NCBI GenBank assembly: GCA_024641475.1
Contig: JAHECZ010000004.1
Span: 36,019 to 100,018, forward strand
Direction: 5' to 3'
Source: Gammaproteobacteria bacterium
GTDB lineage: Bacteria; Pseudomonadota; Gammaproteobacteria; UBA6429; Thiohalophilaceae
Length of the DNA stretch: 64,000 nucleotides
Positions 1-12,047 of the stretch are shown here, piece after piece. The notes beneath the pieces are model-generated. The model ran no database searches, was not told where the DNA came from, and saw only the letters and a list, made by a program, of their open reading frames with translations. The translations under genes and the position numbers were made by a program. Every line of letters begins with the position of its first letter. The stretch's first letter is position 1.

Positions 1-39
1 ATCCTGACCGGTCACGATCATTACTGAATATTATTTGGT

Positions 40-1439: not shown

Positions 1440-2781
1440 ATTTGCCTACCATGACGGTGACCATATTTTGCGGGGTAACGCGGCGACGGTAGGCATCCAT
1501 GATTTGTTCGCGCGTCACGCTTTCAACTTTTTTATTGAAGGTCTGCAGATAATCCAGTGGCATATTATAAAAGCCGATCATCGCCACCTGTTCGAGAATA
1601 TCCTTGTTGCTATCGATACGTAACGGGAACCCGCCGGTGATATTTTTCTTGGCATGTTGTAATTCCTCAGCAGTTGGGCCTTCAGCGATAAATTTGGTGA
1701 GAATCTCCCGTAGCATTTGCAACGCCTGTTCGGCTTGATCGTTACGGGTTTGTAGCGCCAATAAAAGGGGGCCTTTGCGCTGCATCGGCATGAAGTAACT
1801 ATAGCTGCTGTAGGCAAGACCTTTGCCCTCGCGTATTTGATCCACAATCCGCGAACCAAAGCCACTGCCCCCAAGAATGTGATTACCGACATACAAAGGG
1901 AAATAATCCGCGTCACTACGTGTCATGCCAGGTTGTCCTAGCCACACATGAGTTTGCGTAGAGGGATGTTCTTCTTTGATCAGTTTACTGGCGTGTGCGG
2001 CAGGTACTTCCGGTAACAGCGCTGCGGCTTGACCTGCAGGTAAACCACCGGCAACTTGTTCCGCAAGTGCTTCCGCCCTGGAACGATTCACGTCACCGAC
2101 GATCACCACCAGCGCATTGGCACCGACATAGTAATTTTTATAAAAGTTAATAATATCGTCGCGTTTGAATGCCGTGACACTTTCTTCCGTACCCAGGACA
2201 GGTGTGGCATAGGGATGCTGCTCATAGACCGCGCTGTAGAACGCCAGTTCGGCGAGTTGCTCAGGAGATTCACGCTGATTCTGCAGACCAACTAATGTAC
2301 GTTGCCGTTCGCGCTCGAGTTCCGCTGGCTCAAAGCGTGGCGTCTTGAGTATGGCCGCCATGGTATCCATGGCTACCGTTAACAATGGCTTATCCACCAG
2401 ACTGCGCAGCTGTACCACGGCCATATCGCGATGTGCGCTACTGGAAAACTGCGCACCGACACTGTCAAACCGTTCCAGCACTTGCTCCGTATTCCAGTCA
2501 CCGGCGCCATGATCGAGCAATTCGTTTGTCATGCGTGCCAGACCGGGTTTACCGTCATCGCGTGCGGCACCGGCATTAAATACCACGCGCACATCGACCA
2601 TCGGCAATTGTGTCGCGGCGACATAATAAACCCTGGCACCATTCTTCAATGACCAGGTTTCAATTTGAATACCTTCGCGTGCCTGTTGATCGGTGTGCCG
2701 TGGCATAAAGATAATCACCACAACCGCGATCACTGCTAGCAACAGCACCCCGGCTGCCAGAAAATATTTATTCTTCAACAT
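1414..2781 (-). CDS. M16-family peptidase homologue without the zinc motif
   Basis: 455 aa, secreted or membrane-anchored: residues 1-27 form a hydrophobic N-terminal segment. The fold is that of the insulinase/PqqL (M16) family, but where active members carry HxxEH this protein reads LLDHGAGDW, so no inverted zinc-binding motif is visible. It retains the R/Y-containing C-terminal half (GLAYSSYSYF). In this family a catalytic and a non-catalytic subunit commonly act as a pair. The gene directly upstream on the same strand, 24 nt away, encodes the active-type partner, so a heterodimer is a reasonable inference. Substrate unknown. Confidence 0.88.
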   Translation of the reverse strand: MLKNKYFLAAGVLLLAVIAVVVIIFMPRHTDQQAREGIQIETWSLKNGARVYYVAATQLPMVDVRVVFNAGAARDDGKPGLARMTNELLDHGAGDWNTEQVLERFDSVGAQFSSSAHRDMAVVQLRSLVDKPLLTVAMDTMAAILKTPRFEPAELERERQRTLVGLQNQRESPEQLAELAFYSAVYEQHPYATPVLGTEESVTAFKRDDIINFYKNYYVGANALVVIVGDVNRSRAEALAEQVAGGLPAGQAAALLPEVPAAHASKLIKEEHPSTQTHVWLGQPGMTRSDADYFPLYVGNHILGGSGFGSRIVDQIREGKGLAYSSYSYFMPMQRKGPLLLALQTRNDQAEQALQMLREILTKFIAEGPTAEELQHAKKNITGGFPLRIDSNKDILEQVAMIGFYNMPLDYLQTFNKKVESVTREQIMDAYRRRVTPQNMVTVMVGKFEATEPKK

Positions 2782-2805
2782 ATAAGTCGTAGTCCTTGTT
2801 GTTGA

Positions 2806-4206
2806 TTAGTGATGATGTTCACTGTTAAGTGCACGTGGTCGCGCCCGAATCGTGACCTTCTGCGGATCGAGAATAGCCACCGTGAGTTGATCCTCGTTGA
2901 GGTATTTGCGTGCAACTTGCTGTACCTGTTCGGCGGTAACTGCACGTACACGTGGCAGATACTCGGCGGCTTGTTTATAGCCCAAACCAACGGTTTCATA
3001 AATTCCCAATTCCATGCCCTGGTAAAAACTGGAATCCTTCTGATAGACATCATGCGCAACAACCTGGGCCTTGATGCGATCCAGCTCATCCGGTTTGATC
3101 AATTCATTTTTTAATGCAGTCACCTGTTCGCCGACAGCCTGTCTGACTTCATCGACGGTTTTACCATTGGCGGGAGTGGCGTCGATGAGCAGCATATCAG
3201 CCTGCCACGATCCCATGTTGTACTCCACGTCCGTCGATACCGCGATTTGTTTGTCGCGCACCAGGATGCGATCCAGCCGTGAGGTACGACTGCCACCCAG
3301 TACACCGGCGAGCACTTCCAGCGCGTAAGCTTCCCATTGATCTTCTTTCTTGAGTGTTTTCAACACCGGGGTTTTGTAGCCCATCAAGAGATATGGCACC
3401 TGCGCCGGAGCGCGCACGTGCATTTCGCGTAAACCGATCTGTGGAATCTCCGTACGCGGCTTCACCGCTTGAATCGGTTGTGGCGCGATGGCGCCAAAAT
3501 ATTTTTCCGCCAATGCATACACTTCTTTGGGTTGCACATCACCCACCACCACCAGGGTGGCATTATTGGGCGCATACCAACGCTGATACCACTGCCGCAA
3601 ATCATCAACGCTCATCACATCCAGATCGCTCATCCAGCCAATGATTGGATGTTTGTAGGAACTGTTGCTATACGCCACGGAATTAAATTGTTCGCTGGTC
3701 AACGCACGAGGATTATCCTCGGTGCGCATCCGCCGTTCTTCCTTGACCACTTCGAGTTCTTTCTTGAATTCTTCGGCGGATTTTTCACTGAACTTGGGAT
3801 TGGCCAACATCAGATTGCGCATCCGATCCGCTTCCATCTCGAAGCTCACTGACAAACGGCTCTTCTCCAGCATTTGGAAATACGCGGTGTAGTCGTGGCT
3901 GGTAAATGCATTATCCTGCCCGCCGTTCTCGGAGATAATGCGGTTGAACTGCCCTGGTCCGAAGCGCTCGGTGCCCTTGAACATCATGTGTTCCAGCACA
4001 TGCGAAAGACCGGTAATACCGTCGTGTTCATAGGCACTGCCGACTTTGTACCAAATTTGCGATACCACCACAGGAGCGCGATGATCCTGCTTCACCAGGA
4101 GTTTCAAGCCGTTCTTGAGTTGAAACTCGTCGACACTGTTATCCGCGGCAACCAGGTTTGTCACCGGTGCCAGCATCAGCAATAAACTCATCAATCGCCA
4201 CTGCAT
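2806..4206 (-). CDS. M16-family zinc metallopeptidase
   Basis: 466 aa, probably periplasmic: an N-terminal signal-like segment ends near VAAD at residue 22. Seen: the inverted zinc motif HVLEH in GLSHVLEHMMFKGT, with the distal glutamate region EFKKELEVVKEERR about 75 residues on, as in active M16 proteases. It belongs to the PqqL/YhjJ-like bacterial processing peptidases. The last residues are NSEHHH. It is the first gene of the M16 pair and diverges from ftsY; a 35-nt dyad lies in the shared upstream region. Confidence 0.92.
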   Translation of the reverse strand: MQWRLMSLLLMLAPVTNLVAADNSVDEFQLKNGLKLLVKQDHRAPVVVSQIWYKVGSAYEHDGITGLSHVLEHMMFKGTERFGPGQFNRIISENGGQDNAFTSHDYTAYFQMLEKSRLSVSFEMEADRMRNLMLANPKFSEKSAEEFKKELEVVKEERRMRTEDNPRALTSEQFNSVAYSNSSYKHPIIGWMSDLDVMSVDDLRQWYQRWYAPNNATLVVVGDVQPKEVYALAEKYFGAIAPQPIQAVKPRTEIPQIGLREMHVRAPAQVPYLLMGYKTPVLKTLKKEDQWEAYALEVLAGVLGGSRTSRLDRILVRDKQIAVSTDVEYNMGSWQADMLLIDATPANGKTVDEVRQAVGEQVTALKNELIKPDELDRIKAQVVAHDVYQKDSSFYQGMELGIYETVGLGYKQAAEYLPRVRAVTAEQVQQVARKYLNEDQLTVAILDPQKVTIRARPRALNSEHHH

Positions 4207-7000: not shown

Positions 7001-8398
7001 ATGAGTGACAAAACCCGAATAATCGTTGTTGATGGCTCGGCCGTATCGCGGGCCATTCTGACCCGTATTCTGCAGGATGAAGTGGCGAATTCCGAGGTCG
7101 AGATGTGCGCGACGGGCGAGGAAGTCCTGGCTTTGCTGCAACAAGGCAAATATGACCTGATTTCCACCGCCTTAATGCTTCCGGATATGGATGGGCTTGA
7201 GCTCAGCCGCAAAGTCCGACAATCTCGCTCACACAGTTACATTCCCATCATCGTGGTCTCAGGTGATGCTGATTCGCGCCTGCTGCGCGAGGGTTTTGAA
7301 GCAGGCGTCACCGACTACTTCGATAAATCCCAGGGATATAAAGTCTTTGGCAGTTTTGTACGTTCTTTCATTCAACGCCACTCTGGATTGATGGGACATA
7401 TCCTGTTTGTGGAAGACAGTGCCACCGCAGCGGCCATGGTGCAAAAGACCCTGGAGCGTCAGGGTCTGAAAGTCACGCATGTCACGGCGGCAGAAGATGC
7501 GCTGGCCTTGATGGATAAGGTACTTGCAGCCCGTGGCTGCCTGACCGATGAATACGACATGGTCATCACCGATTTCTATCTGGTCGGTGAATTAACCGGG
7601 GGCGATTTGCTCTATGCCATTCGCGCCAAGATGCATCTTTCCCAACAGGAAATGCCGGTGTTAGTGCTTACCAGCACCGAAGATCAGCACACCCAGGTTG
7701 AGGCATTTCATGCCGGAGCTAACGATTTTGTTACCAAGCCCATTATTGAAGAAGTATTGATCGCCCGAGTCCGTTCACTGCTGCTGATCAAGCACCAATA
7801 CAATGCCTTGAAAAATCAGGCCGAGGCGATGCGCTGGATTGCTGTCACTGACAGCTTGACGGGCGTCCGCAGTAAACGCTATCTGGTCGATAACGGTGAA
7901 ACTTATATTAACGACCCGAGCCACCAACCGGTTTGGGCAATGTTGATCGATATTGATCACTTCAAACTCATCAATGACACCCTCGGGCATATCACTGGTG
8001 ACCATGTCCTGGCTGAATTAGGCACGACACTCAATGAGACGTTTCCGGATGGCATGGTAGTGCGATTTGGGGGCGAGGAGTTCTGTGTGCTCATGCCCAA
8101 TACTGATACTGAACAGGCGCTGGAACGCGCTGAATTACTGCGCCAGCAAGTCCAGGCATTACGTCCAGCCGATGTGAATATCACCGTAAGTATTGGCCTG
8201 GCGTCGACTATGGACCATCCAGGCGAGACCTTGACACGGTTCCTTGGCCTGGCGGACAAGGCTCTCTATCGATCAAAAGAAAGTGGGCGTAATCGTGTTC
8301 ATCTGTTCTTACCTCAGGGGCCAACCCCCTCGCCGCTGGATAACCCTTCGCTAGAAATGAACACTCCAGAAGAGCTGACACGTCATTCTCGGCTGTAA
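7001..8398 (+). CDS. response regulator: REC-REC-GGDEF diguanylate cyclase
   Basis: 465 aa, soluble. Domain order: receiver 1 (about 1-125), receiver 2 (about 130-265), GGDEF (about 285-450). In receiver 1 the position of the phosphoacceptor Asp in the usual DLxxxDLMLPDMDG pattern is Ala 57 (DLISTALMLPDMDG), so it should not be phosphorylated. Receiver 2 keeps its Asp (MVITDFYL, D191). The cyclase motif is GGEEF at 357-361, an active form, and no RxxD inhibitory site is seen five residues upstream. It probably makes cyclic di-GMP under control of receiver 2. No sensor kinase is adjacent. It lies just before rpoH, 102 nt apart. Confidence 0.93.
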   Translation: MSDKTRIIVVDGSAVSRAILTRILQDEVANSEVEMCATGEEVLALLQQGKYDLISTALMLPDMDGLELSRKVRQSRSHSYIPIIVVSGDADSRLLREGFEAGVTDYFDKSQGYKVFGSFVRSFIQRHSGLMGHILFVEDSATAAAMVQKTLERQGLKVTHVTAAEDALALMDKVLAARGCLTDEYDMVITDFYLVGELTGGDLLYAIRAKMHLSQQEMPVLVLTSTEDQHTQVEAFHAGANDFVTKPIIEEVLIARVRSLLLIKHQYNALKNQAEAMRWIAVTDSLTGVRSKRYLVDNGETYINDPSHQPVWAMLIDIDHFKLINDTLGHITGDHVLAELGTTLNETFPDGMVVRFGGEEFCVLMPNTDTEQALERAELLRQQVQALRPADVNITVSIGLASTMDHPGETLTRFLGLADKALYRSKESGRNRVHLFLPQGPTPSPLDNPSLEMNTPEELTRHSRL

Positions 8399-8442
8399 GT
8401 CTTTGTTTTATGTGTATTAATTAATTTGAACTCTCCTGCCAA

Positions 8443-8469
8443 TTGGCACTCGAAGGTTAGGAGTGCTAA
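8443..8469 (+). promoter_or_regulatory. CIRCE element (HrcA operator) at rpoH
   Basis: TTGGCACTC, nine bases, GAGTGCTAA. The CIRCE consensus is TTAGCACTC-N9-GAGTGCTAA, so 17 of 18 arm bases match with exactly the right spacing. It ends 31 nt before the rpoH start codon and overlaps the predicted promoter. Established knowledge: HrcA represses groE and dnaK operons by binding CIRCE. Inference: HrcA also represses rpoH here. Confidence 0.87.
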
Positions 8470-8472
8470 TAT
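8443..8472 (+). promoter_or_regulatory. predicted sigma-70 promoter of rpoH
   Basis: A -35-like TTGGCA (8443-8448) and a -10-like TAATAT (8467-8472) are separated by 18 bp. The -35 hexamer is the first six bases of the CIRCE left arm, and the -10 begins in its right arm, so a bound repressor would occlude RNA polymerase. Confidence 0.55.
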
Positions 8473-8500
8473 TACAAATACCTGATATAGGGGAGACACC

Positions 8501-9346
8501 ATGACTAAAGCCAAAGCTATCGCCATTCCGGTCCCGACCGGTAGTATCGACGCTTATTTGCAAGCCATACGCAATATCCCGGTGTTAAGTACAGCGGAAG
8601 AACAAGCGCTGGCTATCCGCTTGCGTGATCACGAAGACCTGGATGCTGCCCGTCAATTGGTCATGTCGCACTTACGCTTTGTGGCGCACATTGCCCGCGG
8701 CTATAGCGGCTATGGACTGGCACAAGCCGATTTAATTCAGGAAGGCAATATTGGCCTGATGAAAGCCGTCAAACGCTTCGACCCGACGCAGGGTGTGCGC
8801 CTGGTATCGTTTGCGGTGTACTGGATCCGCGCTGAAATTCATGAATTCATTTTACGTAACTGGCGCATTGTGAAAATCGCCACGACCAAAGCGCAACGTA
8901 AATTATTTTTTAATCTGCGTGGCGCTAAAAAGCATTTAGGCTGGTTCTCGCATGACGAAGTCCAGGCCGTCGCCAAGGATCTGGGTGTTTCAGAAAAAGA
9001 AGTCATGGAAATGGAATCACGCCTGTCGGGTCATGATGTGGCCTTTGATTTACGCAATGACGATGATGACGATGAGATGCCACATCCCGCTGCCTATTTG
9101 CAGGATATGACTCATAACCCCATGCAGCTGACAGAAGAAGCGGAATGGGAAGCACACAACCACGATCGTTTGCAAACGGCATTAACCACACTGGATAGCC
9201 GCAGCAAGGAAATCATTCAGCGTCGTTGGCTGGATGATGACAAGGCTACCTTGCAGGAATTGGCAGATAAATATCAGGTTTCTGCCGAGCGCATTCGCCA
9301 GCTCGAGAATAATGCCATGAAGAAACTACAAAACGTCTTGCAATAA
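8501..9346 (+). CDS. rpoH: heat-shock sigma factor RpoH (sigma-32)
   Basis: Directs RNA polymerase to heat-shock promoters. 281 aa, the family's usual size. Seen: region 2 with [19 protein letters not shown] and [17 protein letters not shown], the RpoH box QRKLFFNLR that separates it from RpoD and RpoS, and a region 4 helix-turn-helix near the C-terminus ([19 protein letters not shown]). A strong Shine-Dalgarno GGGGAG lies 8 nt before the ATG. Upstream is a CIRCE element, which suggests repression by HrcA. A bidirectional terminator follows. Confidence 0.97.
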
Positions 9347-9367: not shown

Positions 9368-9397
9368 AAAAGGCCCCTGACGGGGCCTTTTATTTTT
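9368..9397. terminator. bidirectional Rho-independent terminator
   Basis: Stem AAAAGGCCCC / GGGGCCTTTT with a TGAC loop, followed by ATTTTT on the plus strand and preceded by an A-rich stretch that becomes T-rich on the minus strand. It separates convergent rpoH and the coiled-coil gene, whose stop codon lies inside it. Confidence 0.9.
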
Positions 9398-10097
9398 CTG
9401 AATTACCTGCAGACGCCTGCCCAGCCGGATCCATATCCGGAATTTCCTCCAAATCTGCCTCGGTAGCTTCTTCCACCAGATTTTCTGATATTTTTTGTTT
9501 GAGCTGAGTCAATTCATTCTCGATATGTTTTAGCCCTTCTTTTTTGGCTCCGCCACCGGCATACATCTGCGTGTACTCTTTCAGCATACTTTCCATCGAC
9601 GTCATCGATTCAGCCAGGTCTTTCTCCAGTTTGGCTTTATCATTTTCCAACTGTTTTATTTGCATGCGCAGATGTGCATTCTGTTTTGGATTGTCGCCGC
9701 GTTCAATTACTTTGGTGGACTCAATTGTGTCCACCAGCTTACGGTAGGTACTGGTAATCTGCTCAACATCGCGCTGCACTCTGGATAAGTTATCCCGTTC
9801 ATGGCCAAGAAAAATTTTTAATACGCGATTATAAATTTGCTTTTCGCAACTCAACATGACATCAACGATTTTTTTGGCGTCATCATGATCCAGCTCATTC
9901 GCCTTTTCCATGGACTCCATCAGCACACCCCTGCGGGATTGCTCATGTTTACGCAAAGCGTCGACAAAAGCACGCGCAGCACGTCGATCTTTTTGTGTGC
10001 GGCGTATCATAACCACCGCCGCTATACTGACGAGCAGTGCCAGGAAGCCACCCACCTCGGAGAAAATTACCAATAAGCCAATCAATGAGTCGCTCAC
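9390..10097 (-). CDS. membrane-anchored coiled-coil protein, unknown function
   Basis: 235 aa that I do not recognise. Seen: one N-terminal membrane helix (about residues 5-30) ending in RRTQKDRR, then a long charged, heptad-rich region with predicted coiled coils (roughly 95-215), and an acidic C-terminal tail rich in E and D. The stop codon sits in the terminator shared with rpoH. Its start overlaps the stop of the VWA gene by 4 nt, so the two are translationally coupled and probably work together at the inner membrane. Confidence 0.8.
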   Translation of the reverse strand: MSDSLIGLLVIFSEVGGFLALLVSIAAVVMIRRTQKDRRAARAFVDALRKHEQSRRGVLMESMEKANELDHDDAKKIVDVMLSCEKQIYNRVLKIFLGHERDNLSRVQRDVEQITSTYRKLVDTIESTKVIERGDNPKQNAHLRMQIKQLENDKAKLEKDLAESMTSMESMLKEYTQMYAGGGAKKEGLKHIENELTQLKQKISENLVEEATEADLEEIPDMDPAGQASAGNSEK

Positions 10098-11992
10098 ACC
10101 TGCATCTCCTTGGCGTCTTTCTCAACTTGTTTCTCGCGACCTTTGCGTATACGTCGATATAACAAATACCCGACAGCAAATACAATTACGTTAGTGCCTA
10201 ATACAATACTGCCCACAATTTTCCAATCAAAGCCTTTTTTCTGCTTTTCTTCCGTAGCCCCATTTTCCGGATTTGGGGTTGGTTCAGCATGTTTATCTTC
10301 CTTTTTAGCTGCATGCGGATCTGCATGCGCATCCGGCACAGCCTGTTTTGATTCCGGGGAATGTGCTGGAATCTCAATTTTGATTGCCAATGATTGCGGA
10401 CCTTTTGTCACCGTCAGCAGTTGTTCAAAATCCATTTTAAGCGGATTACCGTCATAGCGCATCGCAGCCATCGTCAAAGTAAATTTCTGATTGGCGAATT
10501 TTACCGGTATTTCAATTACCCATTCCTGCTCATTGATTTGCGCCACCGTTTGGGGCGCTTCATCGTGAAACCGTACTTGCATGGAGACGCTTTCCGGTCG
10601 AATCAAACCAGGGTGAGGCAGGATGCTTATATGAAATGGTTTGTCGGGCGCTTCTTGTGTTATGGCAATGTTGGCCGGGCTGTCATAGACATTCAGGCTA
10701 TGATGCAGCTCGCGTTGAAAGGTCAAGCTCTTAGCCTGCACGATAGCTTCATAGCTACCCGGCTGTTCAATTTTATCCAGCAATACACTGTAGACACCGT
10801 CACCCTTGAGACTGTCCGGCGCCTGCCCATCATCGTGAAGAGCCAGACTTTGCGCCTTCTTTTGCGCATCGACCAGCTTTAATTCGAATTTTGTCTTCTC
10901 GAGCAAGTTGGAATTGGTAATGGTTTTATTATCTTCCAGTAAACGTGCCCGCACATCAAACCGATCGCCTAACAATAGTGTGTTTGGCAATTTATCAAGC
11001 TGCATACGTAAATTGGTCACCACCAGCACGCGATTATCCGGATCGACTTTTGCCTGCAATCCCCACGCACCCGCTTCCGGCGCTTTGATGGTAATCAGGT
11101 CATAGCCTTCTTCATGATGCCATTGGACATTTTCCGGATGTTCTTTCTCTGAGAGCATTTTCTTGTCAGGCTTAATCAAATGGGTAGTCGGACTATCTTT
11201 GGCCAGAAACACCAACACGGTGATATCACTGACATTCTTGTCCACCTGAAACGCATTATTTTCGATCGGCAGACTGTCAGCACCGACGGATTTTTCAAAC
11301 AATTTTAAAAATACCCGTTGTAGATCTTCCGCACTGGTCACTTTTTCAAATGAACCCCGTGTTGCCGATGAAATTGCCTGCAGCAAATCAAAATCCACCT
11401 TATCTGATAGCGCGATGGTATGTACGGTGACATCGGCTTGTTCCAATGCCGGTAATAATTCCTGCAACAATCGTCGCCGTGACTGTGCGTTTAATTGCGG
11501 ATCTTTTCCTATATCCACCATGCCGTCGGTCAACAAGATCATATGACGTCGGTAATGTGGATCGGGTTCTTTCCACCCGGCACTGGCTTTTCTCACCGCA
11601 TCTTCGATATTGGTAAATAAACCACGCGAATGGATTTTTGCAGCTTCGGCTCTTGCCGTATCACGCCAGGTTTTGTCGACATTACCCAGCGGCACCGGCA
11701 TTGCGACAAATTGACCAAAGGTCCAGACGCCGGCACGCGTATCTTTGGGTAGCAATTCCACTAATAAACGTAACGCCGGTGCACGTAAATTTTTTGGATC
11801 ATTTTGCTTCATGCTGCCGGAGACATCGATCAATACCCGAACATCACTTTTGGCATCGGCTCTCCCGGTTACCGGACTACTCAGTAAGCCGATAACGAGC
11901 ATGAAACTGATAAATAGCGTACTGCTCGCAGACGAGATATCTCTCCTCTGCCCGCGCAGCACCGCACCACTGATTTTTCCTTGTGAAATCAT
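10094..11992 (-). CDS. von Willebrand factor A domain membrane protein
   Basis: About 632 aa. Order: a hydrophobic N-terminal segment, a VWA domain with metal site DVSGS (in VLIDVSGSMKQ) and LLTDGMVD, a long beta-rich region with Ig-like character, a low-complexity H/A/E/P stretch, and a C-terminal membrane helix followed by a basic tail (RRIRKGREK). The layout resembles the TIGR03503 family, from memory. An in-frame GTG at 12046 gives a longer version, but a terminator at 12048-12073 lies only 2 nt from it, so a later start is likelier and I use the ATG at 11992. Function unknown; the coiled-coil partner is coupled downstream. Confidence 0.83.
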   Translation of the reverse strand: MISQGKISGAVLRGQRRDISSASSTLFISFMLVIGLLSSPVTGRADAKSDVRVLIDVSGSMKQNDPKNLRAPALRLLVELLPKDTRAGVWTFGQFVAMPVPLGNVDKTWRDTARAEAAKIHSRGLFTNIEDAVRKASAGWKEPDPHYRRHMILLTDGMVDIGKDPQLNAQSRRRLLQELLPALEQADVTVHTIALSDKVDFDLLQAISSATRGSFEKVTSAEDLQRVFLKLFEKSVGADSLPIENNAFQVDKNVSDITVLVFLAKDSPTTHLIKPDKKMLSEKEHPENVQWHHEEGYDLITIKAPEAGAWGLQAKVDPDNRVLVVTNLRMQLDKLPNTLLLGDRFDVRARLLEDNKTITNSNLLEKTKFELKLVDAQKKAQSLALHDDGQAPDSLKGDGVYSVLLDKIEQPGSYEAIVQAKSLTFQRELHHSLNVYDSPANIAITQEAPDKPFHISILPHPGLIRPESVSMQVRFHDEAPQTVAQINEQEWVIEIPVKFANQKFTLTMAAMRYDGNPLKMDFEQLLTVTKGPQSLAIKIEIPAHSPESKQAVPDAHADPHAAKKEDKHAEPTPNPENGATEEKQKKGFDWKIVGSIVLGTNVIVFAVGYLLYRRIRKGREKQVEKDAKEMQV

Positions 11993-12047
11993 GATAGTGA
12001 TAGCGGATGATCCCGCCAGAGCATTAATTTCAGCGGTTATACCCACA

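Follow-up and report, generated by a model that had tools for sequence, protein, structure and literature searches.

Upstream of rpoH, the gene of sigma-32, this gammaproteobacterium carries a CIRCE operator that shares bases with a predicted sigma-E-class promoter and with a predicted sigma-70-class promoter. From this arrangement and from its conservation in relatives, we consider it very likely that HrcA represses rpoH through CIRCE by occluding both the sigma-E and the housekeeping promoters.

Results

The sequence at 8443-8469 of the window (the whole stretch of 64,000 nucleotides that was analysed) reads TTGGCACTC-GAAGGTTAG-GAGTGCTAA. It has the layout of the CIRCE dyad, TTAGCACTC-N9-GAGTGCTAA, and matches 17 of the 18 arm positions, the sole mismatch being a change of A to G at position 3 of the left arm. 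Shuffling gives an expectation of 0.01 CIRCE matches with up to three mismatches per window, and the site ahead of rpoH is the only one present. Counted from its first base, CIRCE lies 58 bases ahead of the rpoH start (Table 1). The initial annotation had placed the element over the rpoH promoter, and this was borne out: the operator takes in all six bases of the sigma-70-type -35 hexamer and the first three of the -10 hexamer.

Table 1. Features of the rpoH region (window coordinates)
Feature	Position	Strand	Basis or remark
Upstream gene, receiver domains and GGDEF	7001..8398	+	Pfam; between ftsX and rpoH
Sigma-E-type -35, GAACTC	8428..8433	+	GAAC at -15 from CIRCE in 35/35 family loci
CIRCE operator (predicted HrcA site)	arms 8443-8451 and 8461-8469, spacer 9	.	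dyad match
Sigma-70-type -35, TTGGCA	8443..8448	+	first six CIRCE bases; G at CIRCE position 3
Sigma-E-type -10, TCGAA	8450..8454	+	TC closes the CIRCE left arm; GAA in the CIRCE spacer
Sigma-70-type -10, TAATAT	8467..8472	+	TG at 8464-8465; first three bases inside the CIRCE right arm
Probable ribosome-binding site, GGGGAG	8490..8495	+	by inspection
rpoH, sigma-32, 281 aa	8501..9346	+	TIGR02392 equivalog, 418.5 bits (cut-off 323.1)

The order ftsE-ftsX-rpoH is the customary neighbourhood of the gene. The GGDEF gene found between ftsX and rpoH here has a PleD-like layout, and the gene order is kept in the sister species (L181). Downstream of rpoH, at 9390-10097 on the minus strand, a 235-aa protein without a Pfam match is encoded, adjoining a VWA-domain protein (10094-12046); in the sister species, a homologue (L181, 336-1043) is likewise a neighbour of rpoH. 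The RpoH protein itself contains, by inspection, the RpoH-box-like motif QRKLFFNLR, so post-translational control of sigma-32 probably persists.

The genome assembly is a draft of 3.16 Mb in 131 contigs and is 97% complete; its gene sequences and its relatives point to a gammaproteobacterium. The initial annotation had called for a search for hrcA and for further CIRCE sites, and both were found. hrcA is present on contig C27 (7058-7720; PF01628, E 2.2e-66), with the C-terminal and the DNA-binding Pfam domains. With up to three mismatches allowed, the whole assembly holds only three CIRCE sites, at groES, rpoH and hrcA; the site at groES-groEL is perfect and the one at hrcA-grpE is degraded, with 2 mismatches. 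The classical HrcA targets, groESL and the hrcA operon, carry CIRCE in this genome.

For the family, 40 genomes of 18 genera were sampled; 30 rpoH loci were read, and five further ones besides. These loci are related, and the counts taken from them are not independent. CIRCE (up to three mismatches) was found upstream of rpoH in all 35 family genomes in which this DNA could be read, its distance to rpoH ranging from 55 to 76 bases in the set of 30. With these 30 loci aligned on CIRCE, variation between -60 and +67 was at background level outside a few conserved blocks, namely T-GAAC-TT at -16 to -10 (GAAC in 30/30), the two CIRCE arms, A11-A12 and A29-T30. The A is found at position 11 in 27 and at position 12 in 25 of the loci, A29 in 29, and T30 in every one. 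The five additional loci match this footprint.

The left arm starts with TTGGCA rather than the canonical TTAGCA in 29 of the 30 family rpoH loci. This G at position 3 is found in only 1 of 20 groES loci, the other 19 having A. The groES sites of the same family (n=20) mostly present T at positions 11 and 12, and neither the conserved GAAC nor the conserved AT at 29-30 was found in them. A symmetric repressor site leaves such one-sided, gene-specific conservation unexplained; therefore, we read the conserved bases as promoter elements.

The sigma-70-type promoter, TTGGCA-N18-TAATAT at 8443-8472, agrees with TTGACA-16..18-TATAAT at 9 of 12 positions, has TG ahead of the -10, and is the only sigma-70-like promoter in a scan of 8380-8510. 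The match is weak by itself because shuffles give 0.4. However, positions 25, 26, 29 and 30, counted from the start of CIRCE, are invariant or almost so in the 30 relatives, and TAnnAT at 25-30 is kept in 38 of the 44 named proteobacterial loci with CIRCE (see below), including ones without GAAC. TTGGCA is a closer match to the sigma-70 -35 than the canonical TTAGCA, and TAnnAT is the predicted -10 core.

The other promoter, missing from the initial annotation, is GAACTC-N16-TCGAA at 8428-8454. It fits the sigma-E class (GAACTT-like -35, spacing of 16, TCNNA as -10) and is conserved in relatives. This genome has rpoE (303.9 bits, above the curated cut-off), followed by rseA, and GAACTC-N16-TCTTA is found upstream of its own rpoE. 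In the family, rpoE scores above the curated cut-off in 39 of 40 genomes, and GAACTN-N16-TC stands ahead of it in 30/30, this genome included. Among the 44 named loci with CIRCE, GAAC lies at -15 in 19 and at -16 in 6, and at any other offset twice at most. The GAAC box is missing from many Burkholderiales and other betaproteobacterial CIRCE-rpoH loci, in which CIRCE and the sigma-70 -10 are retained; therefore, the sigma-E part is not universal.

GAAC sits at one fixed offset, its spacing of 16 is that of sigma-E promoters, and TCNNA is conserved, all of which speaks against the alternative that HrcA acts on rpoH via CIRCE with the sigma-70 promoter alone being real and the GAAC block serving, for example, as an upstream contact. 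The identical layout ahead of rpoE in the 30 genomes and the groES CIRCE sites devoid of GAAC speak against it too. We regard this explanation as unlikely, even though the hexamers with their TG and the retention of TAnnAT in loci without GAAC are in line with it.

The composite of CIRCE with a sigma-E promoter, as our preferred reading has it, was also searched for in the class, using the pattern GAAC-N11/12-CIRCE on 274 sampled genomes (221 genera) and the reversed pattern as a control. The exact composite was found in 93 of the 274 genomes and in 72 of the 221 genera, and the reversed pattern in none of the 274 genomes. In the 30 sites inspected, the composite was always ahead of rpoH. At the third position of the spacer, left unspecified in the pattern and corresponding to the fifth base of the sigma-E -10, A is present in 82 of the 93 composites, against 0 of 20 groES sites.

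Of 78 named proteobacterial loci whose upstream DNA could be read, 44 have a CIRCE-like dyad ahead of rpoH, 41 of them with no more than two mismatches. Among the hrcA-bearing genomes with the element at rpoH are a Uliginosibacterium and a Dyella (L078 and L021). Co-occurrence was counted on named loci only, L071 and L079 being excluded because in both the contig breaks off shortly before rpoH. Both hrcA and CIRCE are present in 41 loci, hrcA only in 5, CIRCE only in 3 (all of them metagenome assemblies of uncertain completeness) and neither in 29; the Fisher p of 5e-13 ignores kinship, and the pattern follows clades. An independent-pairs test on the RpoH tree, which took hrcA as present in family members beyond those searched for it, yielded too few supported pairs for significance. 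In the Enterobacterales, Vibrionales, Pasteurellales and Aeromonadales loci searched, neither hrcA nor CIRCE was found. The dyad is thus kept in relatives, a point on which the initial annotation had let its reading depend. Taken with the presence of hrcA and the scarcity of the dyad where hrcA is missing, this supports the view that rpoH stands under HrcA, which would bind the operator.

Some loci depart from the common pattern. Pseudoalteromonas presents a perfect CIRCE at rpoH within a clade otherwise without hrcA among the loci examined; in L179 (Pseudoalteromonas luteoviolacea), a strongly diverged HrcA (2208-3152, 45 bits) is encoded between nadK and grpE, and its DNA-binding domain gave no Pfam match. 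Four Xanthomonad-type loci (L012, L015, L037 and L040) have an altered dyad upstream of rpoH, TTAGCAGTC-N9-GACTGCTAA or near it, and the matching changes in both arms of some of these dyads suggest an altered HrcA specificity. In L007, which bears hrcA, the CIRCE upstream of rpoH is decayed; TTGGCA and GAGTGCTAT are retained with a shifted spacing, and the promoter is still sigma-70-like.

It could also be thought that the operator is an inherited relic without present regulatory weight, as the mismatch at rpoH and the degraded site at hrcA might indicate. This is very improbable, since the site is kept in all the readable family genomes while its flanks diverged to background, and it is mostly missing from genomes without hrcA. 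Finally, we give hardly any credit to CIRCE as a hairpin of the rpoH mRNA that sets stability or translation instead of a DNA operator: a stem could form if transcription ran through the dyad, as in read-through from the GGDEF gene, but the predicted starts (about 8460 for sigma-E and 8479 for sigma-70) allow no more than the right arm to be transcribed, and hence no intact dyad, the distribution of the dyad tracks hrcA, and the first 262 nt from the predicted sigma-70 start fold like shuffles (z 0.13, a single fold and a poor test, also for an RNA thermometer).

Discussion

Since the model organism E. coli has no HrcA, textbooks present repression by HrcA, activation by sigma-32 and sigma-E as circuits that run in parallel. 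In the present case, all three probably converge on a single switch of 45 bases, since the CIRCE at rpoH is conserved across many related bacteria and interlocks with a sigma-E promoter at the level of single bases. As the conserved promoter signature includes the sigma-E element, HrcA probably gates the sigma-E input in addition to the housekeeping one.

The dependence of HrcA on GroE is established for Bacillus and others. We propose that active HrcA on CIRCE would block both forms of RNA polymerase at rpoH, and this exclusion of the two holoenzymes would place rpoH, like groESL and hrcA-grpE, under a repressor that senses GroE. When unfolded protein titrates GroEL, HrcA would become inactive and sigma-70 would transcribe rpoH at a basal rate; envelope stress would free sigma-E and give stronger transcription when HrcA is off. 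The new sigma-32 would then raise the chaperones, GroE included, so that HrcA would be restored and the loop closed. In several relatives, sigma-32-like elements were seen, by pattern only, in the groE upstream regions, which suggests a feed-forward loop with HrcA acting on both rpoH and groE, closed by the action of GroE on HrcA.

Within the same genome, groESL has the same operator. At groES, the operator follows a promoter resembling TTGACA-N16/17-TATnAT and lies near the start site, whereas the rpoH operator overlies the promoter elements themselves.

HrcA control of rpoH had already been predicted in Geobacter sulfurreducens, with CIRCE upstream of the gene (Genome Biol 2004, PMC545781, Table 8). 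In that bacterium, CIRCE lies 51 bases before rpoH (here 58) and is also present at groESL and hrcA-grpE-dnaK-dnaJ, the same three targets as here. However, that prediction concerns one deltaproteobacterium, and an overlap with a sigma-E promoter is not described there. The link between HrcA and rpoH proposed in the initial annotation consequently stands in an amended form: it is not unique to this organism, and its signature includes a sigma-E element as well. A CIRCE fused with a sigma-E promoter was not described in the literature searched, the survey of Permina and Gelfand 2003 lying outside that search, and the fusion predicted here is apparently unreported.

A sigma-E-class promoter directly upstream of rpoH is in itself a known arrangement, as P3 is driven by sigma-E in E. 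coli (PMC8103513) and by AlgU in Pseudomonas aeruginosa (PMC13104619). In the Enterobacterales loci without CIRCE we found GAACTT-N16-TCTGA ahead of rpoH, which is taken to be P3. The difference is that the Enterobacterales genomes searched have neither hrcA nor CIRCE, whereas the -10 of the present element forms part of CIRCE.

A broader proposal, to which we would give an even chance, is that the sigma-E/CIRCE fusion at rpoH is old and widespread in beta- and gammaproteobacteria. It would work as a two-compartment gate, in which envelope stress raises rpoH only once the cytoplasmic chaperonin signal removes HrcA, and P3 of E. coli would be a remnant left after the loss of hrcA.

Conclusions

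The HrcA, sigma-32 and sigma-E circuits share one short DNA element in roughly one third of the class genomes that were sampled. For the bacteria that carry this composite, the prediction is that rpoH would be controlled at the level of transcription via GroE and HrcA.
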